Virus record (IMG/VR): IMGVR_UViG_3300049995_000009
Coordinates: 1 to 57,174 of that record
Origin: a virus
Direction: 5' to 3' (one strand)
Length of the DNA: 57,174 nucleotides
In this document: piece by piece, positions 12,365 to 45,408 of the stretch
How the letters are laid out: every line of letters begins with the position of its first letter
Numbering within the stretch: position 1 is the stretch's first letter
The notes under the pieces: generated by a model
What the model saw: the letters and a program-made list of their open reading frames with translations, nothing else
Database searches by the model: none
What the model was told of the DNA's origin: nothing
Program-made: the position numbers and the translations under genes

Positions 12365-12370
12365 AGGGGC

Positions 12371-16919: not shown

Positions 16920-16938
16920 CGTTTAAGGAGAATTATCA

Positions 16939-17094
16939 ATGGACAAGTTGTATTTATGGCTTGCATGGAAGTTGCCGCACGAATTAGTAAAATGGTGCGC
17001 AGTGCGTTTGATGGCCCATGCGACAGCGGGGCAATATAGTAGTCAAGTCGTGCCAGATTTGCTTGCAATGGACGCTTTGAGACGTTGGGGTTAG
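16939..17094 (+). CDS. Small conserved phage protein (51 aa)
   Basis: A perfect AAGGAG site lies eight bases before the ATG at 16939. The protein MDKLYLWLAWKLPHELVKWC... with ...VPDLLAMDALRRWG matches a short protein family seen in many phage genomes, usually near lysis or early genes. I recall no experimentally proven function. The first half may sit at the membrane. Confidence 0.65.
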   Translation: MDKLYLWLAWKLPHELVKWCAVRLMAHATAGQYSSQVVPDLLAMDALRRWG

Positions 17095-26103: not shown

Positions 26104-27561
26104 ATGGGACTAAGGCAGACGATAGGAAATGCAATAAAATTCTTTTTGCAACAAGACGAGGCATTTGATACCGAATATCAAAGCCGTCTAGAGAAATATG
26201 AGGCATTGCGAAGGCTTGTACGTGGCGAACACAAGAAAAGTCTCAAGGTCAAGTTTGATCAGTTCGATGACAATATTGCGCTAAATTTTACGGGACTTGT
26301 TATTGATCGCTCTGTTTCAATGCTGTTTGGCAAGGGGATTGAATTCGATTTCGGCGAAGAAGCAAAACAAAATATCATGGTTTTGCCGCGCCTAATTGCC
26401 CTTCATCCAGGGCGAATGACAATCGAAACCGACCCCGAAGATTATGAGCGAATAACGGAATATCGCGTTCGATTTGATTGTACTGTTACTGGAAGCGATG
26501 GAAAGGAAATGGATGTTTCCCGACTGGAAACTATCTCGCGTGAAATTGCCGAAGAATCACAGGGCACGACAAGCGAGCAAGAACGCGCCCTTACAACTCC
26601 GCGCCAAGTAGAAACAGGAAACTGGATTATACGCGAGTTCAAATTAGATAAAACAACTCAAAATAAATGGCAACAGATAGGACAAGACATCCGGTGGGAA
26701 TATTCATTCCCACCCATTCTGCATTGGCAAAACCTGCCCGACCCAGAGGGGGCATACGGTCTTTCTGACATCGAGGGCATTGACCAAGCGCAAGACCGCC
26801 TAAATTTTATCAATAGCAATATCAGTAAAATCATTCGATTCTTTGCACATCCGATGCGATGGGGAAAGAATGTTGAAAAGAAAGATTTGCTAGATTCAGG
26901 CCCAGATAAATGGTTGCGTTTTACTGGAGAAACGGCGGCGGTGGGACAACTTGATGCTATTGGGGACTTAGTGAGTAGTCGAAACTTTGCCATTGACATT
27001 CGGCAGGCGCTCTTTGATATTTCGCGCACTCAGGATATGAGTAATCTATTATTGAAAAGTGGGCAACTTACCGATTTCGGTCTACATGTTGCAATGTGGG
27101 ACGCGCTGAATAAGAACGAAACCAAGCGGGAATTATATGGCGATGCTATTCTTGAATTGAATCGCAGGCTCCTGGCATTTCGCCAAGAGGGACAGGGAGA
27201 GGATAGGGCAGAATATATTGATCTCGTTTATCGTGCCAACAAGTTACCCATATTCTTAGATCGTCTTGCATATTTTGGAAGCACTTACGGGACTTGTTAT
27301 ATAAAGATTGTCCCTGATGGCATTGAATTTGATGCGTCTGATACTGATTCGATTATTTGGCCTGACCCATTGCCCATTGATTCTATAGCGCAAACCAATG
27401 CGCTTGTGCAACAGGTCGGTGCGGGATTGGTGAGTAGGGAAACGGCAGCGCGTGAACTTGGACGAGATTGGGAAACCGAAGAAGAGCGTATGAATACGAC
27501 GGCGGTTAGTCAAACCAATGTCGGGGCTGAATTGCTAAAGTCTTTCAATCAGGGCAAATGA
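26104..27561 (+). CDS. Portal protein, SPP1 gp6-like, with a rearranged segment
   Basis: A 485-residue protein. Family hallmarks are present: DRSVSMLFGKGIEFDF (about 68-83), RLIALHPGRMTIETDP, NLPDPEGAYGLSDIEGIDQAQDRLN, LKSGQLTDFGLHVA and IIWPDPLP...LVSRETAARELG. It forms the dodecameric ring at the unique vertex. The segment EGQGED through PDGIE (about 362-408), containing YRANKLPIFLDRLAYFGSTY, normally follows GKGIEF near residue 85 in this family but here lies just before FDASDTDSIIWPDP. The pentapeptide GIEFD occurs at both sites. The gene is open throughout. Confidence 0.85.
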   Translation: MGLRQTIGNAIKFFLQQDEAFDTEYQSRLEKYEALRRLVRGEHKKSLKVKFDQFDDNIALNFTGLVIDRSVSMLFGKGIEFDFGEEAKQNIMVLPRLIALHPGRMTIETDPEDYERITEYRVRFDCTVTGSDGKEMDVSRLETISREIAEESQGTTSEQERALTTPRQVETGNWIIREFKLDKTTQNKWQQIGQDIRWEYSFPPILHWQNLPDPEGAYGLSDIEGIDQAQDRLNFINSNISKIIRFFAHPMRWGKNVEKKDLLDSGPDKWLRFTGETAAVGQLDAIGDLVSSRNFAIDIRQALFDISRTQDMSNLLLKSGQLTDFGLHVAMWDALNKNETKRELYGDAILELNRRLLAFRQEGQGEDRAEYIDLVYRANKLPIFLDRLAYFGSTYGTCYIKIVPDGIEFDASDTDSIIWPDPLPIDSIAQTNALVQQVGAGLVSRETAARELGRDWETEEERMNTTAVSQTNVGAELLKSFNQGK

Positions 27562-27831: not shown

Positions 27832-27849
27832 TGTGTGGAGGGGGCAGAA

Positions 27850-28779
27850 TTGAATCAGGAGACAGCGGACAGGTGGTGTCTTGCACACCACAATGAACTT
27901 TATAAACTGAATAGGTTGGCTGGCGCGCGCATCCTAATGACGGGCGGCACAGGATTTGTCGGGCGCGCCATGCAAGAGCATTTCGTCTATACCGAAGCGG
28001 GACTTAATGCAACACTATATATTACATCCCGCAATGTTCAGGAAAGAACGCGAATAGGATTTGGAATATATTTGATTCCTGGCACAGCCGAAACATGCAA
28101 GATTCCCGATAACATTACGCATGTTATCCACTTGGAGCCGTATGGCGAAGAGGGAATATTTCGGCTTTTTCAAGACAGCACCCTAAAAGTTTTGTATGCC
28201 AGTTCTGGCGCGGCAGAAGCTTGTGATAGCAATTATGCCAGAGCAAAATTGACCGGGGAATATCTTTGTCATCTGCTCAGATTGAATCACGGAATAGATG
28301 CAACAGTCGCCCGCCTATGGTCATTCGTCGGGCCGCATCTTCCGCTCGATAGCAATTATGCTATCGGCAACTTTATCAGGGATGGACTGAATGGCGGCCC
28401 TATCATCGTCAAGGGCGATGGCGAGGCGGTACGCTCGTATATGTACACGACCGACCTTGCAGAGTGGATGTGGACAATCCTGCTGAATGGGCGAGCAGGC
28501 GAGATTTACAATGTCGGTTCTGAGAATGCTATCACGACTGGCGATCTGGCGCAAAAGATTGCACTTGCACTAAAGTCATACAGGTCATCACGTTTTGAGA
28601 CATGGCGAGTATACGCAGAATTGAACATTGACATTCTGAATGAACAAGGCGAGCTGTCAACGCGCTACGTGCCCGACACCAGCAAGACGCGCAATGAGTT
28701 GGGGCTAACGCAAAAGGTCGGCTTGGATGAGGCAATCGCCAGGACGATAGAATGGAATAGAAAAAATGCGCAAACTTGA
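27850..28779 (+). CDS. NAD-dependent nucleotide-sugar epimerase/dehydratase
   Basis: A 309-residue extended SDR. I choose the TTG at 27850 because GGAGGGGGCAGAA precedes it exactly as before the previous ATG; a GTG 15 bases earlier lies inside that site. The Rossmann motif GGTGFVG is at 32-38, and the active-site Ser118/119, Tyr129 and Lys133 form the SxnYxxxK set (SNYARAK). The C-terminal part has GEAVRSYMYTTDLAEWMW, typical of sugar-nucleotide epimerases and dehydratases. It opens the carbohydrate cassette; the exact substrate is not readable. Confidence 0.85.
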   Translation: MNQETADRWCLAHHNELYKLNRLAGARILMTGGTGFVGRAMQEHFVYTEAGLNATLYITSRNVQERTRIGFGIYLIPGTAETCKIPDNITHVIHLEPYGEEGIFRLFQDSTLKVLYASSGAAEACDSNYARAKLTGEYLCHLLRLNHGIDATVARLWSFVGPHLPLDSNYAIGNFIRDGLNGGPIIVKGDGEAVRSYMYTTDLAEWMWTILLNGRAGEIYNVGSENAITTGDLAQKIALALKSYRSSRFETWRVYAELNIDILNEQGELSTRYVPDTSKTRNELGLTQKVGLDEAIARTIEWNRKNAQT

Positions 28780-28990
28780 TTGGTTTGAATTATTACAAAT
28801 AAAGTTTTGGGGCACAGTTTTACATTGTCTATCCATACTTGTTGTAAGGGCATCGGGTATAGAACCGAGTCAAAAGCAATTTGACTCAACACAGACAAGG
28901 ATTGAAAACTTTCTCGATGAACTTATTAAGACTGAAAAGGCATACATTCAGGAAATGGAAAATGAAAATCGGCAATCGGCAAATCGGTGA
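28766..28990 (+). CDS. Small membrane-associated protein (74 aa)
   Basis: A 74-residue protein overlapping both neighbours. The first 30 residues (DWFELLQIKFWGTVLHCLSIL) form an amphipathic or membrane helix, followed by a charged coiled-coil segment (TRIENFLDELIKTEKAYIQE). It may tether cassette enzymes at the membrane, but this is speculation. No family recognised. Confidence 0.5.
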   Translation: MRKLDWFELLQIKFWGTVLHCLSILVVRASGIEPSQKQFDSTQTRIENFLDELIKTEKAYIQEMENENRQSANR

Positions 28991-30002
28991 CGGCGCATCG
29001 TGCTATATCATCGCAGAGGCGGGTGTCAATCACTGTGGCGAGATTGATATTGCGCGTTGCATGATTGACGCTGCAAAGCAGGCGGGCGCGGATGCGGTCA
29101 AGTTCCAACTCTACTACCCAGACAAGACCATCTCGAAGTTTTGCCCGCAGGCGGAATATGCACGCCGCGCAGGGATGACTGAATCACACAAGGATATGAC
29201 GGCGCGGCTGATGCTCGCGGTGAAGGATTACAGAAGACTCAAGAATCATTGTGACGACATTGGTATTGAATTCTTGTGTACTGGCTTTGACGAAACGGCA
29301 ATTAATGCGCTTTATGTGATGGGCGTGCGTGCACTGAAAATCCCAAGCGGCGAGATTAATAACCTCACTTACCTGCGTTATGCGGCATACTACCAATTGC
29401 CCATTATCTTGTCAACTGGCATGTCCGAATTGTGGGAAGTTGAACAGGCCATCCGCGCAATTGTATCACGTGGCAACCATGACATTGCCTTACTGCATTG
29501 TGTTAGCAACTATCCCGCCGCACCAGAAGATTGCAACCTGCACGCAATGAAGGCGATGCGTAATGAATTCGGTTATCCCGTTGGGTTTAGTGACCACACC
29601 GAAGGCAATGAGGTTGCACTTGCGGCGGTTGCGTTGGGGGCATGTATCATCGAAAAGCATTTCACGCTCGACAAGTCGCTGCCAGGACCAGACCATCAAG
29701 CGTCTTGCACACCCGACGAGTTTGCGGCTCTCGTGGAAGGGATACGAAAGGTTGAAAAGTCGCTATCAGGCGATGGTGTCAAACGCATGATGGAAAGCGA
29801 GCGCAACACGCGAGACGTGGCTCGCAAAAGTGTCGTGGCGGCGCGTGACATTCAGGAGGGGGAAACTTTCACGCGCGATAATCTGACAGTAAAGCGACCT
29901 GGAACTGGATTGTCGCCATACATGCTAGATAAACTCATCGGACATAAAGTCACAAGTCGAATTGAGGCCGATGTTATTATCGCGCGGAAGATGGTGAAAT
30001 GA
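28962..30002 (+). CDS. neuB: NeuB-like nonulosonic acid synthase
   Basis: A 346-residue protein from ATG 28962, where AEAGVNHCGEIDIA-type sequence begins; a longer start is out of family. NeuB enzymes join phosphoenolpyruvate to a six-carbon amino sugar to make sialic, legionaminic or pseudaminic acid. Visible blocks: AEAGVNH, VKFQLYYPD, CTGFDE, LKIPSGEINN, ILSTGMSE, LHCVSNYPA, GFSDHTEGN, EKHFTLDK and PGPDH. The C-terminal SAF domain (about 285-346: ARKSVVAARDI...MVK) is complete. AGGAAATGG precedes the ATG. The specific product cannot be told. Confidence 0.92.
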   Translation: MKIGNRQIGDGASCYIIAEAGVNHCGEIDIARCMIDAAKQAGADAVKFQLYYPDKTISKFCPQAEYARRAGMTESHKDMTARLMLAVKDYRRLKNHCDDIGIEFLCTGFDETAINALYVMGVRALKIPSGEINNLTYLRYAAYYQLPIILSTGMSELWEVEQAIRAIVSRGNHDIALLHCVSNYPAAPEDCNLHAMKAMRNEFGYPVGFSDHTEGNEVALAAVALGACIIEKHFTLDKSLPGPDHQASCTPDEFAALVEGIRKVEKSLSGDGVKRMMESERNTRDVARKSVVAARDIQEGETFTRDNLTVKRPGTGLSPYMLDKLIGHKVTSRIEADVIIARKMVK

Positions 30003-30109
30003 ATAAATATGATCTACAAACGCATTTAGGCGCAGCGGCGATATGGTTTATCGGTATGGGTATAGGGATTACAATTCTTTACATTGTACATCTTGTGTTA
30101 GGCGGATAA
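29999..30109 (+). CDS. 36-residue single-span membrane peptide
   Basis: ATGA overlap with the NeuB stop and TAATG overlap with the NeuC start. The product has a polar N-terminus (MNKYDLQTHLGAAA) and one membrane helix (IWFIGMGIGITILYIVHLVL). Its position between two coupled enzyme genes suggests it is translated and could anchor or couple them. Function unknown. Confidence 0.5.
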   Translation: MNKYDLQTHLGAAAIWFIGMGIGITILYIVHLVLGG

Positions 30110-31263
30110 TGAGGCGCATCGGCGTTGTCACCCAATCCCGCAGCGAGTACAGCATCTTGCGCCCCGTGCTAAAGCGCATCACTGCCGACCCTGATTTGCA
30201 ACTGGTGCTGTATGTGGGCGGGATGCACCTGTCACCCGACTTTGGCAACACAGAGACAGAGATTGAGTACCCGATTGCAGAGCGGGTGGAATGTCTCATG
30301 TCCAGCGATTCACCGGAAGGGACAGGCAAGAGCATCGGCCTAACTGCGATGGGATTCGCGCAAGCGTTCGCCAACAACAAGCCTGATATTTTGCTGGTAA
30401 CAGGCGATAGATATGAGATGTTTGCCGCTGCTGCCGCTGCTGTTCCATTTGGAATCCCAATAGTGCATCTGGATGGCGGGGCGCTGACCTACGGCGCATT
30501 TGATGAACAGTGGCGACATGCCATGACGAAATTGGCGCATTTGCATTTCTGTTACACCGAGGAAAACGCAATACGTGTCAAGCAGATGGGAGAGGAGGCA
30601 TGGCGCGTAACGATGACGGGCAGTCCGGCATTAGACGATATTCGCCCTGACAAAATATGGAAACATCTTGACGAATGCAATCTACATATCACTGGCGACA
30701 CATTGCTTGTTGTGTTTCACTCTGTCACGACTGAATATGAGCACACAGAGGAATATATTAACAACTTGCTGGCTGCCCTGCTGCGCATCAACCAACCCGT
30801 TATTATGATTATGCCGAACTCAGACATGGGTGGGCATATCATCATCAAGGCAATGCGCCACTTTGCAGAGAAGTATCCCAAGCTGGCGCAAGCGCACGCG
30901 AATTTGTGGCCCGACGTATTTCGCGGCGTCATGGCTTATTGCGGTGTGATGGTTGGCAATTCATCGGCGGGAATCATGGAAGCGCCGAGCTTTCATTTGC
31001 CCGTTGTGAATATCGGGACGCGACAGGCAGGGCGGATGCACGCCCGCAACGTGATTGACGTTGGCTATTCGGTTGACAATATTGCGAACGGTGTCGAACT
31101 GGCAAGTCGCTTTTACTTTCGTAATAGCCTGGATAATCTGGTAAATCCCTACGGCGACGGACATGCCGCCGAGCGCATTGTAGATGTGCTGAAAACGACG
31201 CCGATAAATGAGGCATTACTTATCAAGAAATTCTCGGAGGGAAAACATGACCAACCTATTTGA
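30109..31263 (+). CDS. neuC: NeuC-like UDP-N-acetylhexosamine 2-epimerase (hydrolysing type)
   Basis: A 384-residue GT-B-fold enzyme from ATG 30109. Family blocks: VVTQSRSEYSILRPVL, GGMHLSPDFG, TGDRYEMFAAA, HLDGG...DEQWRHAMTKLAHLHF, GSPALDDI, PNSDMGG, MVGNSSAGIMEAP and GTRQAGR. It removes UDP while inverting C2 to yield ManNAc or a 6-deoxy analogue that NeuB then uses. The usual HIHGGE reads HLDGG here, a small departure from the canonical motif. It is joined by TAATG to the membrane peptide upstream. Together with NeuB it defines a nonulosonate-type pathway. Confidence 0.9.
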   Translation: MRRIGVVTQSRSEYSILRPVLKRITADPDLQLVLYVGGMHLSPDFGNTETEIEYPIAERVECLMSSDSPEGTGKSIGLTAMGFAQAFANNKPDILLVTGDRYEMFAAAAAAVPFGIPIVHLDGGALTYGAFDEQWRHAMTKLAHLHFCYTEENAIRVKQMGEEAWRVTMTGSPALDDIRPDKIWKHLDECNLHITGDTLLVVFHSVTTEYEHTEEYINNLLAALLRINQPVIMIMPNSDMGGHIIIKAMRHFAEKYPKLAQAHANLWPDVFRGVMAYCGVMVGNSSAGIMEAPSFHLPVVNIGTRQAGRMHARNVIDVGYSVDNIANGVELASRFYFRNSLDNLVNPYGDGHAAERIVDVLKTTPINEALLIKKFSEGKHDQPI

Positions 31264-31981
31264 CGTATCCGGCAAAGTCGCTCTGGTGACAGGCGGGCGG
31301 CGCGGGATTGGGTTCGCGCTGGCGATGGGATTGCGCGACGCTGGCGCGAAGGTGGCTGTCATCGCCAAGTCGGATAATCGCGGCGAATTGCCCGATGAGA
31401 TATTTTACACTGAAGCAGACCTGTATCTGCGATCGGCTCGGCGCTATCTTGTTGACAGGATTGCAGATCATATGGGCGGCCTGGATATCCTGGTAAACAA
31501 TGCGGGCAACTCGATACTCGCATCGGCACTCGATACCATGCCAACAGAATGGGATACACAATTCGCCGTCAACGTGGATGCCCCATTTGAATTGTCGCAG
31601 CAGGCGGCAAAGATTATGATGACACATGGATGGGGTCGCATTATCAATATCACATCCATCTCTGCATTCAACGGAAACCGAAACGGCGCGGCCTACGTTG
31701 CCACAAAGCACGCCCTGTGGGGCATGACAAAGACGTTATCAAATGAATGGGCCCCCTACGGGATTACGGTCAATTGCATTGCGCCGGGATTCGTCAAGAC
31801 GCCAATGGCAGCAAGAAATATGGACCCTGAGAAGGAAAAACAAATCGTGGGCAGGATTCCGGTGGGAAGAATCGCCACGCCCGCCGACCTCGTTGGCCCG
31901 CTACTGTTCTTGGCGAGTGATGCGAGTCGGTATATAACAGGTTCGACAATCGTTGTTGACGGGGGATGGTTGGCGAGATGA
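31247..31981 (+). CDS. Short-chain dehydrogenase/reductase
   Basis: A 244-residue classical SDR from ATG 31247 with GGAGGGAAAAC ahead. TGGRRGIG (15-22) binds the cofactor, NNAG at 84-87, catalytic Ser137 or Ser139, Tyr150 and Lys154 (AAYVATK), and the C-terminal GSTIVVDGGW are all present. It resembles gluconate 5-dehydrogenase/KduD-like sugar-acid or ketose reductases. In this cassette it probably reduces or oxidises a sugar intermediate. The stop overlaps the next start (ATGA). Confidence 0.88.
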   Translation: MTNLFDVSGKVALVTGGRRGIGFALAMGLRDAGAKVAVIAKSDNRGELPDEIFYTEADLYLRSARRYLVDRIADHMGGLDILVNNAGNSILASALDTMPTEWDTQFAVNVDAPFELSQQAAKIMMTHGWGRIINITSISAFNGNRNGAAYVATKHALWGMTKTLSNEWAPYGITVNCIAPGFVKTPMAARNMDPEKEKQIVGRIPVGRIATPADLVGPLLFLASDASRYITGSTIVVDGGWLAR

Positions 31982-33084
31982 GTTACTCAAAGCACATGCG
32001 CGGCTACACTGACCCGCGCACATTATACCAAACTGACGCGCTGTACCATTGGCAACACGGCGAACCGTTTATGCCAGTCATGGTCGAGATTAGTCCAGAC
32101 CATCGGTGTATCCAGTGCTGCCGATATTGCTATAACCAGAATCATGTCAATGATGAAGTACTGCGCCCGCATGTCTTTGTAGATGTGATGGGTCAATTGG
32201 CCGATTGCGGCGTCAAATCCGTGATGATACAGGGTTCTGGCGAGCCGCTTATGCACAAGTCGTTGAGCGTGGCTGTTGAGGTTGGCGCAAAGTTCGGATT
32301 GGCAATGACACTGACGACGAATGGCGTGCTGTTGACGCCGCGCCTGCAAGAAAAGTTATTGCCTAATTTGGCATACATTCGATTGAGTGTTGTCGAGAGT
32401 GACCCGAAGCGGTACGCTTTTCTGCATGGATGCGATGAACTGCAATGGTACAAGCTGATTGAGAATATCAAGAGCGCCGTTGCATTGCGAGAGCGGCTCG
32501 ACTTGCCCATTGCGCTGATCGCGTCGGTGTATCTGGAAGATGTGAACTTTGCGCACACATACGAGATTGTGAAATTCTGCAAAGAACTTGGCCTGGACTA
32601 TATCTCAGTCCAGGAGGCGGGCTACTATGATCACTCGCCTGCCGGGGCTGCATCGTATGCGTCAACTCGATATTCGGCAGACGCTATCGAAGATATGCGG
32701 CACGAAGTATTGTCACTTTGTAACGATAACTTTCGCGTCAAGGTGCGCTTTCCGGTCAACGATGGTTGCCATTTCTCTGGAATGGACAAGGATACCTACC
32801 GGCCCGGCTATTGCCAGGGCGTCAAGTTTATGACCATCATCGCAGCCGACGGGAATGTGTACCCGTGTTACCGAGCCTGGGGCAATCCGCTTTTGAGCTA
32901 TGGCAGTTTATACGAGCAATCATTCGCTGGAATTTGGAACAACGCAAGGCGACGGGAGATTGAGCAATTCATCTTGGGCACGCCGCCAACGGGCCAGGAA
33001 TGCGCGGTATGCAACAACAACACGACTAACCCGATGCTGGACAGATTGCGCAATGCTACAAGATGGAAGGACTTTCTAACATGA
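31978..33084 (+). CDS. Radical SAM/SPASM enzyme 1
   Basis: A 368-residue enzyme. The SAM-cleaving cluster motif is Cys44-x3-Cys48-x2-Cys51 (HRCIQCCRYC). A GGEP-equivalent QGSGEP lies near 92-97. The C-terminal SPASM-type domain has GYCQG, YPCYRAWG and ECAVCNNN for auxiliary clusters. Radical SAM/SPASM proteins in carbohydrate clusters dehydrogenate or epimerise sugars or modify peptides. The ATG overlaps the SDR stop, and the end overlaps the TIGR04076-like gene. Substrate unknown. Confidence 0.9.
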   Translation: MSYSKHMRGYTDPRTLYQTDALYHWQHGEPFMPVMVEISPDHRCIQCCRYCYNQNHVNDEVLRPHVFVDVMGQLADCGVKSVMIQGSGEPLMHKSLSVAVEVGAKFGLAMTLTTNGVLLTPRLQEKLLPNLAYIRLSVVESDPKRYAFLHGCDELQWYKLIENIKSAVALRERLDLPIALIASVYLEDVNFAHTYEIVKFCKELGLDYISVQEAGYYDHSPAGAASYASTRYSADAIEDMRHEVLSLCNDNFRVKVRFPVNDGCHFSGMDKDTYRPGYCQGVKFMTIIAADGNVYPCYRAWGNPLLSYGSLYEQSFAGIWNNARRREIEQFILGTPPTGQECAVCNNNTTNPMLDRLRNATRWKDFLT

Positions 33085-33611
33085 TTCAAGTCAGGCAATG
33101 CGTCGGGAAAACTGATTGCGCGTGGCACAAGGCGCATAGTTGGGATGGGCATGTCTACATAGAGCCAGAGATATTCACCGGCGATGTTTGCCCTATTTTG
33201 TGGCATACACTCTATCCATACTTCTTGGGCGCACTATTCGGGGCGCGGTATCACTACAACAAGCAGGGTGATTGTCCAGTCTGCTGCCCTGCTGAGTTCG
33301 GCATTGACGTTTTCGTGAAGGTGCGGCCCAACGACGGCAAGTTCCCGGCAGAAGTGCAAGCAGATTGGCGCGATGTGATACACGCCGAAGTGGTCAAGGT
33401 CAACGGCCTATGCGACTATGGGCACAAGGTCGGTGATCGGTTCGTGTTCCCGACCTGCAGGGCGATGATGCAACGCTACGCCTGCCCTGCTGGAATCAAT
33501 AACCTGTTCCCGTTCTTGCAGATCAAGCGACCGAAGTGCATCAACCTGGCGCGGATGCGGTGCCCGGATTGGCAAGAGAATATTTATTACTCGTTGGAGC
33601 GGAATGATTGA
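33081..33611 (+). CDS. Tandem TIGR04076-like protein
   Basis: A 176-residue protein from the ATG at 33081 that overlaps the radical SAM stop. It appears to consist of two related halves. Each has a Cys near the start, an [10 protein letters not shown] or [10 protein letters not shown]-type Cys-Ala/Pro core and a final CP(A/D)...V/I strand ([14 protein letters not shown] and [13 protein letters not shown]). The second half has the diagnostic [19 protein letters not shown]04076-like proteins are small, Cys-containing and, as I recall, often beside radical SAM genes. A helper role for enzyme 1 is inferred. Confidence 0.55.
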
Positions 33612-34686
33612 CTTGCGTCTTAGTGACTTGACGAAAACAGAGCGCCAAAAACTCGAACGCTGTGAGGCGGTTATCCAGCGCGGCCTAAATACGTTTGTCG
33701 AAGTTGGGCAGGCACTCTTGACTATCCGAGATGATAGGCTGTACCGGGCAGAGTTTGGGACATTTGAGGAATATTGTAAGGGAAAATGGGGATGGGCAAG
33801 AAACTATGCAAATAAACTCATTGCGTCGGCTGAGGTGGTTGGAAATTTGGGTACCATGGTACCCATTTTACCAGAATCAGAGCGCCAAGCCCGTCCACTT
33901 ACAGCGCTTCTGCCAGAACAACAGATCGCGGTATGGCAACGCGCCATTGAAACCGCGCCGAATGGAAAGATAACAGCGGCGCATGTTCAAGGCGTTGTAG
34001 ATGATTTTATTCGGCCTCCAATCGAAAGCGCCGACGATATTGATGATGATGATTTGGGGAAAATTTGCGCAACGTGTAAGCATTGTCAAACGCATGGTGA
34101 GGACTGGTGGTGTACATTATTAGAACGTCCGGTTGGTATTGAATACACAATCTGTCAAGGAGAATCTTGGGAAGATGAATGTAAACAACCAATTCCGCAC
34201 GTTGCCCATAACAGCGGAAACAATGAATGGTACACGCCACAAGAATATATAGACGCTGCCCGCGCTGTGATGGGCGACATTGACCTTGACCCCGCTTCTA
34301 CTGAGGTAGCCAATACAGTTATCAATGCAAAGAGATTCTACACGGCGCAAGATGATGGACTGTTGCACGACTGGCGCGGGCGCGTGTGGATGAATCCGCC
34401 GTATGCGTCCGACCTGATTGGCGGTTTTATTGACAAGTTACTTGCGTCCGATGATGTTAGTCAAGCAATTGTTCTGGTGAATAATGCAACGGAGACAAAA
34501 TGGTTTCAATCGCTTGTGGGGGAAGCATCGGCTGTGTGTTTTACGGCGGGGCGTATTAGGTTTTGGAGTCCAGACAAAGAGTCGGCGTCGCCCTTGCAGG
34601 GGCAGGCGATTCTATATATTGGCGAGAATATAAAATTGTTCATCAAAGAGTTTTCAAGGTTTGGTTGGGTTGCATTGATTCAATGA
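33604..34686 (+). CDS. Phage Dam-type DNA N6-adenine methyltransferase with N-terminal helical and zinc parts
   Basis: A 360-residue protein. Residues about 1-140 are helical and resemble DUF3102-type phage domains ([20 protein letters not shown]). A five-Cys patch at 155-184 (CATCKHC...C...C) may bind zinc. The C-terminal 150 residues match phage Dam: [31 protein letters not shown] at 264-267 and GRIRFW. It would methylate adenine in phage DNA to resist restriction or mark it. Its stop overlaps the start of a nuclease-like gene. Confidence 0.82.
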
Positions 34687-35090
34687 ACAATGTACGCGGC
34701 GTGATTCGTAATAGGGAATATTATAATCAAGTCAAAGATTATTCTGGACTTAGATGGGGGAAAATTACGCCAACTGACTTAGATGGATTTATAGATTTTG
34801 GCGACAAGCTATTTGTGATAATCGAATTGAAACACGGAGATAAAAAAGTAGACAGAGGGCAGGAGTTGGCGCTTGAAAGGCTACACGCTTCTATCATAAA
34901 ATCTCGCAAGCGGTGTTTCGTAATAGTCGCCCGCTACGATACATCTGAGGACGTTGATGTGTCAAACTGTATAGTTGATTCAATGCGTTGTAATGGAAAA
35001 TGGAAACAATCTGAGGAACATATAACAGTGAAATGTTTCATTGATAGAGTCTTGAATAAATATGCACCAGAGTATTTGGGGGCAGAATGA
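34683..35090 (+). CDS. PD-(D/E)XK-like nuclease
   Basis: A 135-residue protein coupled by ATGA to the Dam gene. The pattern TDLDGFIDF (Asp32/34), then FVIIELKHG with Glu48-x-Lys50, then an amphipathic helix ([15 protein letters not shown]) is the restriction-endonuclease fold core. In phages such small proteins are often Holliday-junction or DNA-end nucleases. Next to an adenine methylase it could also form a minimal modification-dependent pair, which is speculative. Activity unproven. Confidence 0.65.
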
Positions 35091-36094
35091 GTCAGCATAT
35101 CCAGGGCGCGGACTTGCGCAACAAGAACCGCCTGCCATTGCAAGACGTTGTGCCATTGCCCGCGCCACTGTTAATGTATTTGGAGCCCGTGAATACCTGT
35201 AACATTCGCTGTTCATTCTGCCCTACAGGTGATCGGGACTTGTTGCGAAAGGTCGGCAGGCCGCAAGGCGTGATGAGTTGGTCACTCTTGCGCAAGATCG
35301 TGGCCGACCTAAAAGAGTTCCCACAACGGCTAAAGATGATTGACTTTTTCAAGGATGGCGAACCGCTGACGAACAAGAATTATCCAGAAATGGCAAGTTA
35401 TCTGCGCGCTGCCGATGTCACCGAAAAGATGTGGACAAAGACAAACGGATTGTTGCTCAGTCCTGTCGTCAGTGAACGTTTGGCTGTCGCCGGGTTCGAC
35501 ATGATAGGCATATCGGTGATAGCACCAACCGCAGCAGGATATAAGCGCATCGCAGGCGTGGACATGGATTACGCCAAACTCGTTGACGATGTGGGCTGCC
35601 TATATAACATGCGCGGCTCGTGCAAGATGTACGTCAAGATGATTGACATGCCTGGATTCGCGCAGGCTGACCGCGATAAGTTTCTGGCTGACTTTGGCGA
35701 CAAGTGCGACTACATTGCTATCGAGAACTTGCACGGCTGGTCACGCACGGACTTGAAAGACTTTACACTCGGCACGCATCCTAGCACGTTTGACGGCGTG
35801 CCTAACAAGAGCAAGATTGTGTGTCCCTGGACGCTGTACCAGTTGACGGTGAACTGGAATGGCGCGGTACAGTTGTGCAATGAGGATTGGTCGTGGCAAA
35901 ACATTGTGGGCAATGTCAACAAATCGTCTCTGCTGGACATTTGGAATAGCGATGCGGTGTACGCCTTTCGCCGGATGCACTTGGAGGGACGGCGAATGGA
36001 CAATGCGGCTTGCGGTAGTTGCTACCAGACCATGAGCCAACTTGATGACGTGGACGCATATCGGCAAGAGATATTGCAAAGGCTGCGACAATGA
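35087..36094 (+). CDS. Radical SAM/SPASM enzyme 2
   Basis: A 335-residue enzyme. Cys38-x3-Cys42-x2-Cys45 (CNIRCSFC) binds the SAM iron-sulfur cluster. FFKDGEPL holds the GEP-like motif. The SPASM region has CPWTLYQLTVNWNGAVQLCNEDW and a final CGSC. It is a paralogue of enzyme 1 at the fold level only. It starts in an ATGA overlap after GGGGGCAGA and ends in an ATGA overlap with a small zinc protein. Probably a sugar- or peptide-modifying enzyme. Confidence 0.9.
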   Translation: MSQHIQGADLRNKNRLPLQDVVPLPAPLLMYLEPVNTCNIRCSFCPTGDRDLLRKVGRPQGVMSWSLLRKIVADLKEFPQRLKMIDFFKDGEPLTNKNYPEMASYLRAADVTEKMWTKTNGLLLSPVVSERLAVAGFDMIGISVIAPTAAGYKRIAGVDMDYAKLVDDVGCLYNMRGSCKMYVKMIDMPGFAQADRDKFLADFGDKCDYIAIENLHGWSRTDLKDFTLGTHPSTFDGVPNKSKIVCPWTLYQLTVNWNGAVQLCNEDWSWQNIVGNVNKSSLLDIWNSDAVYAFRRMHLEGRRMDNAACGSCYQTMSQLDDVDAYRQEILQRLRQ

Positions 36095-36312
36095 ATATGC
36101 AACCTGTTTGTGATGAATGTGGAAAACCGGCAATCTATACAATTTCTGGAATGACTGGGAGAGCCCTTATTAATGGCATTGATAACAATATGCAAGGCGC
36201 AGCTTTTTGTAATAAGCACCGGCCACGAAAAGGATGTCATCAGCCCAACAATTGTAAACATGTCAAATTTTATTGGCCCGGAAAGAATGAGTGGAATAAT
36301 GAAACTGTCTGA
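36091..36312 (+). CDS. Small Cys-rich protein (73 aa)
   Basis: A 73-residue protein with CDECGKPA near the start and later CNKHRPRKGCHQPNNCKH, enough ligands for zinc. Coupled by ATGA to radical SAM enzyme 2 and overlapping the thiamine-enzyme gene by 14 bases. Possibly an accessory to its neighbours. No family recognised. Confidence 0.5.
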   Translation: MNMQPVCDECGKPAIYTISGMTGRALINGIDNNMQGAAFCNKHRPRKGCHQPNNCKHVKFYWPGKNEWNNETV

Positions 36313-37978
36313 TTATATCGCCGATTACATCGCCTCGCTGGGCGTGCGCCATGTATTCACCTTGCCGGGCGGCTTTAGTATGCACCTGAACGACAGCATC
36401 GCACACCATCCCAAACTGACGCCTGTCTACATGTTGCACGAGGCAGGCGCGGCGATTGCGGCCGAGGCATACGCCAAAGCCAGCGGCGGAATCGGCGTCT
36501 GTGTGGTGACGGCGGGGCCGGGCTGCACGAATGCGTTGACGGGCGTTGCATCGGCGTGGTTGGATAGTACGCCTCTGCTGGTTATCAGCGGGGACGCAAG
36601 AATGGCGCATCTGAAAGCGCGGGATGATTTTGGATTGCGTCAAGGTGGGCCGCAAGATATTGACATCATGCAAATGATACGCCCAATCACAAAGCATTCA
36701 TTCAGTGCTGGTCCTCGATTTGTAGATGTAATGATGAACGAGGCCGTCAAGTGGGCAATGGAAGGCCGGCGCGGGCCAATCTGGATAGATATACCGCTGG
36801 ACGTTCAGGCTGCGCAGATTGAGCCGAAGGCAACGAGGCCCGATATTCAATTGAGGCATATGCTTGACGTGACCAGAGTTATCACGCTGCTGAAAGAATC
36901 CAAGCGCCCCATCATCCTGGCTGGCGCGGGCGTCCAGAATTCGCGAGACGAGTTTTTGAGACTGATTGACCTATTGCAAGTCCCGGTGTTGACGACATGG
37001 GCGGCGATGGACTTGATTGACTATGATCATCCGTTGTTCATCGGACGCCCTGGCGTAGTGGCGGCACGCGGCGCAAACTTTGCGCTGCAAAATGCCGACC
37101 TGATTCTAGCGATTGGCGCTCGCCTTGACCCGCAGACCATCGGATTCGAGCGCGACCAATTTGCGCCTAATGCAAAGAAAATCATGGTAGACATTGATCA
37201 AGCAGAACTCGACAAACTAGGCGATATGTATATTGACTTGCCCATTTGTGCGGACGCGGGCGATTTCATTCGGGCGATGCTGGCGACTTGTTACGAATGT
37301 CTGCGCCCTGAGTGGCTCGCCTATTGTCAGGACTGGAAAGAACGCTACCCGTTTACGGGCAACGCCGAGACTTATCACATGATTGATATGATTTGTGAAT
37401 TATCAACGCCTGACGATGTATTTGTCGTGTCGCCATCTTGTATGGCAGGCGCTATTTTCATGGCTGGCTTTCACCAGAAGGCGGGACAGCGCATCATATC
37501 ATCGCACGGATTGGGAGCGATGGGATGGGCAACACCGGCGGCGATTGGCGCGGCGCTGGCAACGGGCAGGCGCGTGACGGTGATTGACGGCGATGGCTCA
37601 TTTGCGCAGAATGTGCAAGAACTGGAAGTAATGCGCCGTCTCAATCTGCCCATTCGATTCTTTGTGTTCAATAATGACGGATATGCCAGTATCCGCAATT
37701 CGCAAAACAAGGCATTTGGGCGGTTGTCAGGCGCGGACGAATCGAGCGGGTTATCGCTACCCAATATAGAAGACATTAGTCGAGCATACCATATTGACTA
37801 TGGATTACTGACCCCGCCATCCATTTTTGAGTTTTTCGTACCGCGCAATGAGATGCTTGCGCCGCGTGTTCAATCTGAGATGCTACCCGACGGGACGTGG
37901 CACGGTGGACGACTTGACGATATGTGGCCGTATCTGACACGTGATGAGTATGCAGAGAATATGCAATGCCTGACGTAA
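36299..37978 (+). CDS. Thiamine-diphosphate enzyme (acetolactate synthase-like)
   Basis: A 559-residue enzyme from ATG 36299, the usual start MKLSDYIADYIASLGVRHVF; the longer frame is out of family. The Pyr domain has catalytic Glu48 (HEAGAA), then a central domain with ILAGAGVQ, and the PP domain with GDG at 431-433 and NND at 458-460 (metal and diphosphate motif). Relatives make acetolactate or, in sugar clusters, attach two-carbon units to keto sugars (YerE type). In this cassette a branched-sugar role is attractive but inferred. The end overlaps the head-morphogenesis gene by 13 bases. Confidence 0.88.
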   Translation: MKLSDYIADYIASLGVRHVFTLPGGFSMHLNDSIAHHPKLTPVYMLHEAGAAIAAEAYAKASGGIGVCVVTAGPGCTNALTGVASAWLDSTPLLVISGDARMAHLKARDDFGLRQGGPQDIDIMQMIRPITKHSFSAGPRFVDVMMNEAVKWAMEGRRGPIWIDIPLDVQAAQIEPKATRPDIQLRHMLDVTRVITLLKESKRPIILAGAGVQNSRDEFLRLIDLLQVPVLTTWAAMDLIDYDHPLFIGRPGVVAARGANFALQNADLILAIGARLDPQTIGFERDQFAPNAKKIMVDIDQAELDKLGDMYIDLPICADAGDFIRAMLATCYECLRPEWLAYCQDWKERYPFTGNAETYHMIDMICELSTPDDVFVVSPSCMAGAIFMAGFHQKAGQRIISSHGLGAMGWATPAAIGAALATGRRVTVIDGDGSFAQNVQELEVMRRLNLPIRFFVFNNDGYASIRNSQNKAFGRLSGADESSGLSLPNIEDISRAYHIDYGLLTPPSIFEFFVPRNEMLAPRVQSEMLPDGTWHGGRLDDMWPYLTRDEYAENMQCLT

Positions 37979-38973
37979 TCACCCTGGCCGAACAGTATAG
38001 CGCCGCGCTCTTGAAACACGATACTGCCGCGCTCAATCGCATCATCAATGCCTATGGCGCAATCTACCAGAGACTTGACGACAAGATAACCGCACTAACA
38101 TTAGAGATAGGCGAGCAAGCGCCCACTGCCGGACAAGTCGCAAGAATGGCGCGATTCACATCGCTGATCGAACAGACAAATAACGAGTTGACAGATTTCC
38201 AGGGCTATCTCAAAACAGAAGTAAATAGTCAAGCACGCGGCGCAATTGGGATGGGCGTCAACGATGCGGCGCGGCTCGTGGGTGCATCGGCAACAGGCGA
38301 TGCCGTGGTGCTGGCAGGATTCAATCGCCTACCGACACGCGCAATTGAGAAATTGTTAGGATTCCTTGACCCAAGCGGGCCACTATATGCCAGAATCAAT
38401 TTGCTTGCGCCAACGACAGCCGACCTTGTACGCCAAAAGATTCTTGAGGGCGTGGGCCTGGGGTTCAACCCGAAAAAGATTGCAGCGCAGATACAAAATG
38501 CCTTTGGGCAAGGGTTGACCGATGCGCTGCGCATGACGCGAACGGTACAACTCTATAGTTATCGGGAGGCGAAGCGGGCAACCTATATCGCCAACTCTGA
38601 CGTAGTTTCTGGCTGGTACTGGTTCGCACATCTGAGCGGCAATTGTTGCATGTCTTGTGTCGCTCAGCACGGAACATTCCATAGCAATACTGAACGCCTG
38701 AACGATCACTATAATGGGAAATGTACCGACATTCCCGCCGTTGCTGGATTCGATAACCCGATCACGCAAGACGGTGAAGCGTGGTTTAGCCAACAAGACG
38801 AGGCGCAGCAACGTAGCATGATGGGCGCGCAATATTATCAAGCCTGGAAGGGCGGCGCATTTGGCATTGGCGATTTGAGCAAGGAATCGCCCGATGATGT
38901 CTATGGGCAGATGCGCAGCGTCGCGCCGCTGTATGATTTGTTGGGCGCGGAGCCGCCAGCAGGAATAAAATGA
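37966..38973 (+). CDS. Phage head morphogenesis (minor capsid) protein
   Basis: A 335-residue protein of the SPP1 gp7/Mu F type. The N-terminal 150 residues are helical. The C-terminal domain contains RTVQLYSYREAKRATYI, YWFAHLSGNCCMSCVAQHGT and the conserved NDHYNGKCTDIP, typical of this family, which bridges portal and capsid and enters the procapsid. It normally follows the portal gene; here the cargo cassette lies between them. Its stop overlaps the next start (ATGA). Confidence 0.85.
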   Translation: MPDVITLAEQYSAALLKHDTAALNRIINAYGAIYQRLDDKITALTLEIGEQAPTAGQVARMARFTSLIEQTNNELTDFQGYLKTEVNSQARGAIGMGVNDAARLVGASATGDAVVLAGFNRLPTRAIEKLLGFLDPSGPLYARINLLAPTTADLVRQKILEGVGLGFNPKKIAAQIQNAFGQGLTDALRMTRTVQLYSYREAKRATYIANSDVVSGWYWFAHLSGNCCMSCVAQHGTFHSNTERLNDHYNGKCTDIPAVAGFDNPITQDGEAWFSQQDEAQQRSMMGAQYYQAWKGGAFGIGDLSKESPDDVYGQMRSVAPLYDLLGAEPPAGIK

Positions 38974-40958: not shown

Positions 40959-40970
40959 CATGAGGTGGTT

Positions 40971-41816
40971 ATGAGTATTCTGAATCTTGAATCCACCATT
41001 TCGGGGTACGTCAACACAATCTTTCAGGGTGCGTTGCTGGTGACGCGCGAAAACAACCTGATGGGCGCATTGGTGACGACCTTTAGCGACCGACAAGGGC
41101 TGGCCGTCCGTGACAATTCGCAGTATGGGGGCGTGACGGTCAACACCATCGGAGAGGACGACGATCTGGTCGGGCAAGCGTTTACGCCTTCCAGCATCGC
41201 AACTCTGACCCCTTCTGAACGGGGCGCTCAGTACGTCCTCACAGATTCGCGCATCGAAACCGACCCGTTTCCTGTGCGCGCTGACGCCGCGCAGGACTTG
41301 GGGATGGGGATGGCGACCAAGATCGAAACGGACTTGTTGGGCGATTTTTCGTCCCTGACTGGCGGCACCATCGGCACGGCGGGCAGCGTAATCACGTGGT
41401 CATACTTCTTCAACATGTTGTCTGTCCTACGTTACAACAAGGCTCCGATGCCATACGCCTTCGTATGTCATCCGTACCAGTGGGGCATCCTGGGCAAGGC
41501 GGTCGGGCCGGGCGCGACGGTGACGAACTCCCCGCGCATCCAAGATGCGATCACGACCAACTTCTATGTTGGCTCAGTCAGCGGTGTTGAAATCTACACG
41601 TCGGCCAATATCACGGCGGGAACGTCGGTGTATTGCGCCATGTTCAATCGGCAGGCGTTCGCGTTGGATGTTCGACGCGCTCCACGCCTGGAAGTCGAGC
41701 GGGATTCTTCACGGCGTGCGTATGAATTGAACTTCACTACTGTATACGCGCACGGTGTTTGGCGTCCCACGTTTGGCGTCCTGGGCTGGTTTGATGCCTC
41801 GACGCCGACGACGTAA
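40971..41816 (+). CDS. Major capsid protein
   Basis: A 281-residue protein from ATG 40971 (GAGGTGG ahead). The start MSILNLESTISGYVNTIFQGALLV, the axial-type MPYAFVCHPYQWGIL segment and a final GVWRPTFGVLGWFD fit the HK97-fold capsid proteins of long-tailed phages. The position after the scaffold and before a decoration-like gene agrees. No N-terminal protease-cleavage delta domain is evident, consistent with a separate scaffold. Confidence 0.78.
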   Translation: MSILNLESTISGYVNTIFQGALLVTRENNLMGALVTTFSDRQGLAVRDNSQYGGVTVNTIGEDDDLVGQAFTPSSIATLTPSERGAQYVLTDSRIETDPFPVRADAAQDLGMGMATKIETDLLGDFSSLTGGTIGTAGSVITWSYFFNMLSVLRYNKAPMPYAFVCHPYQWGILGKAVGPGATVTNSPRIQDAITTNFYVGSVSGVEIYTSANITAGTSVYCAMFNRQAFALDVRRAPRLEVERDSSRRAYELNFTTVYAHGVWRPTFGVLGWFDASTPTT

Positions 41817-41828: not shown

Positions 41829-42278
41829 ATGAGTGGCTATGCAGATGTTGTCAATGTAAATCGCACCCTCTGGGCTTGCAATGGAGGGACTCTCACCAAT
41901 GGTGCCTCCATTAACCTGGGAACAACGGTGTACTTTGCGGCACAAGCGCCTACTGCTGTCAACGGCGGCGGGGTCACTGTTCTCGCCGGCTACGCCTGTT
42001 CGTCTATCGCAATGGCGGCGGGCTCGTCTCCGCTGGTTCGTTTGCTGAAATACTCCAGCGCGGCCACGCCGGTGGTGAATGGCACTATCGCTGTCGCGGT
42101 CGGCGGGTCTGCGAGCGCGTGGACTGCCAATGTTCCAAAGACGTTTACCATCTCAAGCGCGTTCGTTAATGCAGGCGAATACATTGCAGTCGAGTTGGCG
42201 GGCACATGCAGTTACTTCCTGGCCGGAACGACCAATGATCAATTGTATGTCAATCTCCAGTACGTGATGGGCTACTAG
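41829..42278 (+). CDS. Capsid decoration-like beta protein
   Basis: A 149-residue protein, Ala/Gly/Val/Ser-rich and all beta (TVYFAAQAPTAVNGGG, IAVAVGGSASAWTANVPKT). GGGGGTGATGAA precedes the ATG. Decoration or head-fibre proteins often sit directly after the capsid gene and bind the outside of the shell. It has no recognisable domain. The following 123 bases contain a GC-rich hairpin (CCCCTCC 42339-42345 with GGAGGGG 42364-42370). Confidence 0.55.
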   Translation: MSGYADVVNVNRTLWACNGGTLTNGASINLGTTVYFAAQAPTAVNGGGVTVLAGYACSSIAMAAGSSPLVRLLKYSSAATPVVNGTIAVAVGGSASAWTANVPKTFTISSAFVNAGEYIAVELAGTCSYFLAGTTNDQLYVNLQYVMGY

Positions 42279-42401: not shown

Positions 42402-43572
42402 ATGCGAATAAATATCCTGGCAAATGCGCCCTGGGCGCGGACGGGTTACGGCGTGCAAACAGCGTTGTTTGCACCGCGTATCAAGGCGTTGGGATACGAG
42501 GTGTCCATCACGGCATATTACGGGCTGGAAGGCGCGGTACTGACGTGGAATGATATGCCCGTGTTCCCGAAGGCATACGACCCATACGCCAACGACATCA
42601 TGTCGGCAAATGCGAAGGCGTTTAATTCTGACATCATGCTCACGAACATGGATACCTGGGTGATACAACCCGAGCGGATGATTCATGCAATCCCGTGGGT
42701 GGCATGGATGCCAGTAGATCACGAACCGCTGCCTGATTGCGTCAAGGACAAGATAACAAAGTGCTTCGCACGCATTGTCTATACAAGATTCGCTGAGAAG
42801 ATGCTGAACGATGCGGGCCTTGATTGCTACTTCGTCCCGATGGGGGTGAACACAAAAGTATATAAGCCAATACCGAGAGACGAAACACGTAAGGTTCTTG
42901 GAGCAAACCCAAACACGTTCGTTGTCGGGCTGGTAGCGATGAACAAGGGACAGCCCGCACGCAAGGCCTTTGAGCCGCAATTGCGAGCCTTTGCAGAATT
43001 TCACGAGAAGCACCCAGACACCGGATTATACCTGCACACACAGTCAGGCGCGGAAATGGCAGGGATTGATCTAAAGAAACTTGTGCAACGTCTAGGGATT
43101 GAAAAGTGTGTGCAATTCTGTGACCAATATCAGAACGTTATCGGATTCAACGACGACTACATGGTCGCCGCCTATAACTCAATGGATGTACTGCTGCTGG
43201 TTTCGATGGGCGAGGGGTTCGGGATCCCGCTGATTGAGGCGCAGGCGTGCGGGACGCCCGTTATCGCGGGCGACTGGACATCAACGGGGGAGTTGGTCTT
43301 TAGCGGCTGGAAGATTCCAAAGAAGGGCGGCTGCGTGGTATTCGCCGCTGGAAGCCTATCAATTCCAGCCGCGCATCAAACCCATCGTGGAAATGCTGGA
43401 ACTGGCTTACAAGCACGCACGCGACCCGCAATATGAAACCGACGCGGTGGCAGGCGCTGCGGCCTATGATGCGGACTATATCACAGAGACATACTGGAAA
43501 CCCGTGCTGGCTGACATTGAACGGAAACTTAAGGCGTTGGGGTCTATTAGTTTTACGGAGCCAACCGTATGA
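42402..43572 (+). pseudogene. GT4-like glycosyltransferase interrupted by a +1 frameshift
   Basis: From ATG 42402 the first frame reads as a GT-B glycosyltransferase: MRINILANAPWARTGYGVQ, PWVAWMPVDHEP, YFVPMGVNTKVY, VSMGEGFGIPLIEAQACGTPVIAGDWTS. Near 43325 (AAGAAGGGCGGC) the match ends, and the expected continuation WYSPLEAYQFQPRIKPIV...YITETYWKPVLADIE is in the next frame to 43572. Removing one G from GGG restores one protein of about 389 residues. It may be a real mutation, a programmed +1 shift or a sequencing error. The stop overlaps the methyltransferase start. Family role: transfers a sugar from a nucleotide donor. Confidence 0.75.
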
Positions 43573-44843: not shown

Positions 44844-45408
44844 GCACAGGATGGACTATCAGGTGATTATGAGTCACGTCATCAAAGACCATCCTTTCGT
44901 TCTTTATAAGGGCGACCCGCACGCGCCGCTCGGCGGCTGGGCGAAGATCGCGCTAATACGTGACGCCTTCACAGAGGGTTATCCCTACGTGGTCTGGATT
45001 GATGCCGACGCGCTGATTTGGGATTTGAAAGTGGATTTGCGTGACGTGTACAAAGAAATGGGTGAGGCGTGTGTCGGGGCGTGCCAGCATCCCGGCCCGC
45101 CCATACATTTGAACGTCGGCGTGGAATACTGGCGCAATACAGACCGCGCCAAAGAATTTGTCGCGGCATGGATTGCGGAAAAAGACGTGCCACACGATGG
45201 ATGGCTTGAACAGGGCGTATTCAACAGAATGAGTACCGACCTGAAATGGGCAGGTATCGTGACTCGCGTCAGCGACAAATGGAATGCGACGAAAATGGCG
45301 GGAACTGATGTTCCCGATGCAGTTATCAAAGGCTATCACGGCCCGGGTAACTATACGCCTTTGATGCGCTTTCAAGCGATGCAAGCTGACTTGGCGAGGG
45401 TAGTATAA
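44719..45408 (+). CDS. GT34-like galactosyltransferase
   Basis: A 229-residue protein. GAGAGGGG precedes the ATG at 44719. The region about 70-130 contains PLGGWAKIALIRDAF, YVVWIDADALIWD with the DxD metal motif (Asp95-x-Asp97) and HLNVGVEYWRN, which match GMA12/MNN10 (GT34) transferases; DGWLEQGVFN follows. It would transfer galactose or a related sugar. With the two genes upstream it forms a small glycosylation block inside the structural operon. Confidence 0.75.
   Translation: MESDRIGIMENDLMIIQQVYCRSDFANLLKLSMSRHMDYALKHRMDYQVIMSHVIKDHPFVLYKGDPHAPLGGWAKIALIRDAFTEGYPYVVWIDADALIWDLKVDLRDVYKEMGEACVGACQHPGPPIHLNVGVEYWRNTDRAKEFVAAWIAEKDVPHDGWLEQGVFNRMSTDLKWAGIVTRVSDKWNATKMAGTDVPDAVIKGYHGPGNYTPLMRFQAMQADLARVV

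Follow-up and report, generated by a model that had tools for sequence, protein, structure and literature searches.

We analysed a 57,174-nucleotide stretch of viral DNA (IMG/VR virus record IMGVR_UViG_3300049995_000009; hereafter the window, which is the entire linear record and possibly a fragment), in which a cassette of putative sugar-biosynthesis genes is found inside the head operon. The cassette lies between the portal gene and the head-morphogenesis gene with every gene on the + strand, in the order epimerase, NeuB-type synthase (NeuB), NeuC-type epimerase (NeuC), short-chain dehydrogenase/reductase (SDR), radical S-adenosylmethionine (SAM)/SPASM enzyme 1, TIGR04076-type protein, Dam-type methyltransferase, a 135-amino-acid open reading frame (ORF), radical SAM/SPASM enzyme 2 and a thiamine diphosphate (ThDP) enzyme (Table 1). 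The genes named at this place by an earlier note on the sequence were all confirmed, on this strand and between these borders, by Pfam, NCBIfam and PHROG matches, while the Dam methyltransferase and the 135-amino-acid ORF had been overlooked. The stop-start overlaps described in that note were found (4-17 bp) at each junction from NeuC/SDR through the 135-amino-acid ORF/radical SAM enzyme 2 and at the ThDP enzyme/head-morphogenesis junction, but NeuB, NeuC and the ThDP enzyme are separated from the gene before them by about 182, 106 and 204 bp, respectively. The starts of NeuB, NeuC, SDR, the TIGR04076-type protein, the 135-amino-acid ORF and the ThDP enzyme were set at the in-frame ATG fitting the family match and not at the longest ORF. 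In the window the portal gene ends at 27561 and the head-morphogenesis gene starts at 37966, a distance of 10.4 kb, in comparison to mostly less than 1 kb and at most 1.36 kb in relatives carrying both genes on one contig; in the Microcystis phage Mae-JY09 the portal gene directly overlaps the head-morphogenesis gene, which represents a natural empty site.

Table 1. Predicted features of the sugar cassette, its borders, the capsid-end cluster and two further genes of the window
Feature	Position	Strand	Evidence and remarks
Large serine recombinase	14142-15770		Resolvase + Recombinase + zinc ribbon
Portal	26104-27561	+	SPP1_portal 5.8e-11; left border of insertion
Extended SDR / NAD-dependent sugar epimerase or reductase	27835-28779	+	PF01370 9.7e-22; not an obvious 4,6-dehydratase
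NeuB-type synthase with SAF domain	28962-30002	+	TIGR03569 414.9 bits > cut-off 399.65; PF08666
NeuC-type hydrolysing UDP-GlcNAc 2-epimerase	30109-31263	+	TIGR03568 390.4 bits > cut-off 235.9
Classical SDR oxidoreductase	31247-31981	+	PF13561 3.9e-55; not at corresponding place in L002
Radical SAM/SPASM enzyme 1	31966-33084	+	PF04055, PF13186
Cys-rich TIGR04076-type protein, possibly doubled	33081-33611	+	38.7 bits > cut-off 33, C half
Dam-type N6-adenine methyltransferase, probable passenger	33604-34686	+	PF05869 2.9e-19; absent from L002
135-amino-acid ORF, probable passenger	34683-35090	+	No Pfam or NCBIfam family
Radical SAM/SPASM enzyme 2	35087-36094	+	SPASM 6.8e-12, Radical_SAM 2.5e-10
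YerE-like ThDP enzyme	36299-37978	+	Three TPP domains (Pfam TPP N/M/C), 4e-25 to 1e-36
Head morphogenesis protein	37966-38973	+	PHROG minor head / head morphogenesis, 1.7e-6; right border of insertion
Major capsid protein (MCP)	40965-41816	+	PF25209 1.8e-6, PHROG 267
Small beta-sandwich protein	41829-42278	+	AlphaFold2 pLDDT 84.5; weak structural matches
GT4 glycosyltransferase	42402-43436	+	PF13692 9.5e-13; 87% identical to L002 over N part
Sugar C-methyltransferase-like enzyme	43569-44843	+	PF13489 3.5e-22
GT34-like glycosyltransferase	44743-45408	+	PF05637 5.1e-6; 65% / 56% identical to L002 / L005
1045-amino-acid protein	45699-48836		No Pfam match; directly after GT34-like gene

The same slot is occupied in other phages. 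A scan of viral contigs with the ThDP enzyme found an independent IMG/VR contig (L002) with the order of the window, that is NeuB, NeuC, radical SAM enzyme, TIGR04076-type protein, further genes, ThDP enzyme and head morphogenesis, while no SDR is found at the corresponding place and a C-methyltransferase and a B12-binding radical SAM enzyme replace Dam and radical SAM enzyme 2. The identity between window and L002 was 74% for NeuB, 59% for radical SAM enzyme 1, 79% for the TIGR04076-type protein and 76% for the ThDP enzyme. A second contig from the same metagenome (L005) carries a different NeuB with PseI as its best score, an HNH-like gene, a ThDP enzyme 56% identical to that of the window, and the head-morphogenesis gene; the HNH-like gene (789-1379, 196 amino acids) stands between NeuB and the ThDP enzyme, a place at which other modules are swapped. 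In a third contig (L058) the portal gene is followed by a 289-amino-acid gene, an epimerase, an RfbH-like gene, another epimerase, a C-methyltransferase, a radical SAM enzyme, a ThDP gene (5189-6870) which a frameshift near 6217-6259 divides in two, and the head-morphogenesis gene. In the window, L002 and L005 alike, the head-morphogenesis gene begins before the ThDP gene has ended. When alignments of the head-morphogenesis and TIGR04076-type proteins were used to scan viral sequences, the L002 contig was the sole match, and the viral scan with NeuB alone gave none.

For the cassette genes shared by the window and L002, nonsynonymous divergence (dN) was 0.13 to 0.28 and synonymous divergence (dS) was 0.9 to 3.0, with the synonymous sites of radical SAM enzyme 1 saturated, and the capsid and head genes gave similar values. 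Since dN is far below dS in the estimable genes, the cassette genes are under purifying selection. The recurring gene order indicates that this phage lineage keeps the cassette as a conserved, resident part of its genome, placed after the portal and before the head-morphogenesis gene. A misassembly or recent contamination from a host, which the earlier note had named as a finding that would overturn its reading, has only the unusual gene content in its favor; the G+C content is not distinctive. This explanation fails as the slot and the border with the head gene recur in the independent contigs L002, L005 and L058, and the best bacterial relatives found for the ThDP enzyme are about 41-45% identical (at most 41% in the scan of a genome collection, 45% in a later whole-genome search) in comparison to 56-76% among the phages, so that we regard its probability as negligible. 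The database search for this gene order which the same note had proposed thus returned the order itself in L002, ThDP cassettes in the slot of L005 and L058, and bacterial O-antigen-type loci with a NeuB-ThDP pair.

The catalytic Glu and the GDG...NN motif of the ThDP enzyme are intact and invariant in its alignment. The top solved relative was 8rph (2e-84), which we take to be JanthE. Like YerE (yersiniose) and ErwE (erwiniose), JanthE belongs to the YerE-like group, whose members join 2-oxo acids to a ketone or a keto sugar (PMC12247030). A plain acetolactate synthase was rejected, since the acetolactate equivalog cut-offs were missed among the matches listed and the best acetolactate synthase structure scored lower than 8rph (4e-66). 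The enzyme is thus most likely YerE-like and predicted to branch a keto sugar, which bears out the branching idea of the earlier note. RfbG and RfbH, the genes for 4-keto-3,6-dideoxy sugars, are not found in the window, while genes of this kind are present in L058, at the capsid end of another related phage (L113), and in most bacterial relatives.

For the remaining cassette enzymes, both NeuB and NeuC pass curated equivalog cut-offs, with 5xvs/5zlr as the nearest solved structures to NeuC. Radical SAM enzyme 1 weakly resembles BtrN, an alcohol-oxidizing radical SAM enzyme, and by this likeness could supply a ketone. The doubling of the TIGR04076-type protein proposed in the earlier note is weakly supported: the whole protein exceeds the family cut-off with its match in the C-terminal half, while the N-terminal half alone gave 17.4 bits (E=0.0048), under the cut-off of 33, and BLASTP of the halves against each other gave no significant match; the AlphaFold2 (AF2) model was unusable (predicted local distance difference test, pLDDT, 33). 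The Dam methyltransferase and the 135-amino-acid ORF, wedged into the cassette (33604-35090) with overlapping starts, are probably a mobile passenger, given their absence from L002.

The sugar-related genes do not end with the ThDP gene at 37978, where the earlier note had placed the end of the cassette, for a GT4 glycosyltransferase, a C-methyltransferase and a GT34-like glycosyltransferase follow the capsid gene. The C-methyltransferase, which weakly resembles TcaB9 and mycarose 3-C-methyltransferase, lies between the glycosyltransferases in the window and has its orthologue (63% identity) within the sugar cassette of L002, which ties the sugar cassette and the capsid-end cluster together. 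Among relatives picked solely through their capsid protein (contigs sharing 38% or more capsid identity and continuing for at least 2.5 kb downstream, a few of them perhaps near-duplicates), a GT4 gene was found no more than 4 kb downstream of the MCP gene in all 29 of 29, with a gap of 124 to 1396 bp. Other phages follow a similar pattern. Pontimonas phage phiPsal1 has the order MCP, glycosyltransferase, methyltransferase, glycosyltransferase, and the Manatee Spring podovirus L010 (MW202801, 10244-16304) has MCP, a hypothetical gene, radical SAM/SPASM, glycosyltransferase, PhyH, methyltransferase, NodB-like gene and glycosyltransferase. In L113, RfbH (426.3, above the equivalog cut-off of 423) and an epimerase (319-2137) lie just before the scaffold and MCP genes, which are followed by GT4 and a GT34-like gene. 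In L152, with a distantly related MCP, the capsid gene is followed (10807-16947) by one ORF, radical SAM/SPASM, one ORF, B12 radical SAM, a shortened NeuB, a cupin and further ORFs, apparently a sugar cassette of independent origin. The small protein encoded after the MCP of the window gave a good model with a beta-rich fold, which weakly matched a cyanophage Pam1 capsid chain and jelly-roll proteins with template modelling (TM) scores less than 0.5, so that it may be a cement protein or a glycan acceptor. The 1045-amino-acid protein encoded after the GT34-like gene is possibly an appendage or spike protein.

Putting these observations together, we propose, with moderate confidence, that the phage carries its own pathway for an unusual C-branched sugar and decorates its head with the product. 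All the chemistry of the cassette is predicted from gene content. In this scheme NeuC would produce N-acetylmannosamine (ManNAc) or a relative, and NeuB would condense the NeuC product with phosphoenolpyruvate; the epimerase, the SDR and the radical SAM/SPASM enzymes would shape a keto sugar; the ThDP enzyme would join a decarboxylated 2-oxo acid to the ketone to give a branched, perhaps higher-carbon sugar; the C-methyltransferase would add a methyl group; and, in late expression, the GT4 and GT34-like enzymes would move the product to the capsid or to the small protein encoded next to it. The RfbH-like enzymes of the related phages L058 and L113 speak for this proposal, and so do the bacterial counterpart loci, in which RfbG/RfbH, NeuB, ThDP, radical SAM/SPASM, B12 radical SAM and C-methyltransferase genes occur together. 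Of the two destinations left open by the earlier note, the virion or the host surface, virion glycosylation is the probable one, as suggested by the position in the head operon, the capsid-linked glycosyltransferases and the absence from the window of any multi-pass membrane protein (in a simple hydropathy scan no ORF of at least 70 amino acids in a non-overlapping set had more than two hydrophobic segments).

Several observations weigh against this proposal. The window has no RfbG, RfbH or recognized 4,6-dehydratase that would supply the keto sugar; the virion glycan of this phage group is a prediction from gene content; the bacterial counterpart loci serve surface polysaccharides; and GT4, compared with its counterparts in L002 and L005, changes frame near 43330. 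Past this point the conserved part of GT4 stays open in another frame to about 43572, overlapping the C-methyltransferase start, and the shift may be an assembly error, a real mutation or a programmed shift. In addition, the large serine recombinase makes a temperate phage or an integrated element probable, which keeps conversion of the host surface in play. According to this latter explanation the enzymes would make a sugar for the host O-antigen, capsule or flagellin, either blocking superinfection or converting the lysogen. It agrees with the closest bacterial counterparts, which are O-antigen-type loci, with the usual reading of phage O-antigen nucleotide-sugar genes (PMC12911398), and with a host NeuA that could activate the NeuB product, while the location of the cassette inside the head operon with a start-stop overlap with a head gene, the GT4 tied to the capsid gene in every relative and the lack of a membrane flippase or polymerase speak against it; by the same hydropathy scan, the multi-pass flippase and polyprenyl-phosphate glycosyltransferase of a gtrABC-type seroconversion system were not found in the window. 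We therefore consider a host-surface role unlikely. Whether the cassette is a moron with its own promoter was also considered and this candidate was set aside, since promoter-like (27 in comparison to 23.0 in shuffles) and terminator-like (15 in comparison to 18.4) counts equal those of shuffled sequence and are thus uninformative. No tRNA genes were found in the window that could point to the host, and the terminase relatives infect diverse hosts and allow no host identification.

That the sugars modify the phage DNA and not protein, as glucose does in T4, appears very improbable. The Dam methyltransferase is in the cassette and glycosyltransferases can act on modified DNA, but no base-hypermodification enzyme was recognized among the ten left-arm ORFs scanned, the glycosyltransferases follow the capsid gene, and Dam is not common to the relatives.

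As the earlier note stated, NeuA is missing: PF02348 gave no match at E<=1 in the window, nor in the contigs behind L002 and L005, so that the window shows no CMP-sugar synthetase (NeuA/PseF/LegF) to complete a CMP-nonulosonate pathway, and a host may supply NeuA. Most bacterial relatives of the ThDP enzyme adjoin RfbG/RfbH genes of CDP-3,6-dideoxy-4-keto sugars. The nearest loci, in a Geobacteraceae genome and relatives, have the order RfbF, RfbG, RfbH, NeuB, ThDP enzyme and HAD, followed by radical SAM/SPASM genes, with L195 additionally having a B12 radical SAM enzyme and a C-methyltransferase; here RfbG, RfbH, NeuB, the radical SAM and B12 radical SAM enzymes and the methyltransferase were named by tool matches, and RfbF, HAD and some neighbors by sequence appearance and position. 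By these assignments the nearest bacterial loci hold most of the combined gene catalogue of the phage cassettes. A locus in another genome (L196) has adjacent NeuB (37%), ThDP (40%) and SDR (34%) genes. At L195 (9277-10782) and L011 (8473-9984), NeuB-like proteins of about 500 amino acids with a C-terminal extension, which in L011 weakly matches PuuR, are paired with YerE-like enzymes with no NeuA. In three genomes with a NeuB-ThDP pair (G138, in one 4.7-Mb contig, G239 and G221) the sole strong PF02348 match is KdsB, while G073 has a canonical PseI-PseF pair on another contig.

A maximum-likelihood tree of 43 ThDP enzymes placed the phage enzymes and all NeuB-adjacent bacterial ones in one supported clade (97/94); long branches are present and the branching order within it is open. 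NeuB was found at none of the 18 other ThDP loci detected in the genome collection (L012-L029, each viewed with as much as 10 kb of flank, less where a contig ended), nor adjacent to ThDP genes outside the clade with flanks of about 1.5 kb, while the ThDP enzyme of L058 belongs to the clade even though L058 has no NeuB. The association of the NeuB-ThDP pairing with the clade is a correlation with small effective numbers, since the bacterial pairs come from a small number of separate lineages (the L011 group and G221).

Two explanations of NeuB were compared. In the first, the product of NeuC and NeuB would be a common acid of the sialic or legionaminic type which a host NeuA activates, and a different sugar would arise from the ThDP and radical SAM enzymes. 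This is quite possible even if not our preference: NeuB and NeuC both score over their equivalog cut-offs, and L058 has its ThDP enzyme along with RfbH-like and epimerase genes and without NeuB, while the single clade of NeuB-adjacent and phage ThDP enzymes and the bacterial NeuB-ThDP loci lacking NeuA argue against it. In the second, put forward tentatively and with some doubt, the long 4-hydroxy-2-oxo acid made by NeuB is the donor of the ThDP enzyme and is coupled to the keto sugar, giving a higher-carbon branched sugar which the phage puts on its capsid. NeuB enzymes produce 4-hydroxy-2-oxo acids, and ErwE prefers such acids while MygE accepts C3-C8 2-oxo acids (PMC12247030), hence the proposal of NeuB as the donor supplier. 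The shared clade, the 18 other loci without NeuB and the three genomes with KdsB as their one strong candidate for a CMP-sugar synthetase also count toward it. NeuA would then be unnecessary, and the lack of NeuA in the closest bacterial NeuB-ThDP loci likewise suggests that the NeuB product may feed the ThDP enzyme. On this reading the same would hold for a clade of bacterial surface-sugar loci, in which NeuB would be no step to a CMP-nonulosonate. On the other side, N-acetylneuraminic acid (Neu5Ac) is mostly cyclic in solution, the NeuB of the window is of the canonical Neu5Ac type and has NeuC as its neighbor, and NeuA may be supplied by the host. Of the unusual, perhaps branched, nine-carbon sugar envisaged in the earlier note, the branching idea is supported, while a nine-carbon CMP-activated end product is not established, given the bacterial NeuB-ThDP loci without NeuA.

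In comparison to known systems, the ThDP enzyme shares with YerE-like enzymes the domain architecture, catalytic Glu, GDG motif and best solved relative, and the RfbG/RfbH acceptor-sugar genes occur also in related phages and bacteria, but the one studied here lies among phage head genes, has NeuB as its partner and is accompanied by no RfbG/RfbH in the window. The Geobacteraceae-type loci (L011, L195, L201) are alike in having NeuB next to the ThDP gene, two radical SAM/SPASM genes and no NeuA, and L195 further shares B12 radical SAM and C-methyltransferase genes with the phage cassettes, while their proteins are mostly 25-43% identical and RfbF/G/H and surface-polysaccharide genes, not head genes, surround them. 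Sialic and legionaminic pathways (NeuC-NeuB-NeuA) share NeuC and NeuB over equivalog cut-offs with the window, which differs in lacking NeuA and the LegB/C/H set. The head module of Mae-JY09 (PP395641) is 50% (TerL), 46% (MCP) and 43% (GT4) identical with the same order of MCP, small protein and glycosyltransferase, but its portal and head-morphogenesis genes are not separated by a sugar cassette and its second glycosyltransferase is of another type. To our knowledge, virion glycosylation in tailed phages has been documented in few systems. In the mycobacteriophages Che8 and Rita, it is known to be carried out by phage glycosyltransferases (as cited in PMC11256854). The window phage is alike in encoding glycosyltransferases, with a capsid-protein glycan proposed here, and differs in also encoding a sugar-building cassette and in having its glycosyltransferases directly after the capsid gene. 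Nucleotide-sugar genes are common in phages, for example groundwater Patescibacteriota phages, for which galE/rml/gmd-type genes are listed (PMC12911398); these phages likewise encode sugar-nucleotide enzymes, whereas the head operon of the window holds NeuB together with a YerE-like enzyme and radical SAM enzymes.

In the literature searched, with most subscription journals outside it, we found no head operon with a branched-sugar pathway built on NeuB, a YerE-like enzyme and radical SAM enzymes, no account of this gene set in phages, and no description of the NeuB, radical SAM and acetolactate-type combination in O-antigen loci. While phage sugar-nucleotide genes are usually read as modifiers of the host surface, here an exchangeable sugar cassette is found in the head operon, in a lineage which has a glycosyltransferase after the capsid gene in all relatives examined and which includes Mae-JY09, with Microcystis aeruginosa as its recorded host. 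The cassette thus leads to a testable prediction, branched-sugar glycans on the heads of such phages, and if it is true that NeuB supplies donors to sugar-branching thiamine enzymes, this would explain NeuB genes which are found without NeuA.

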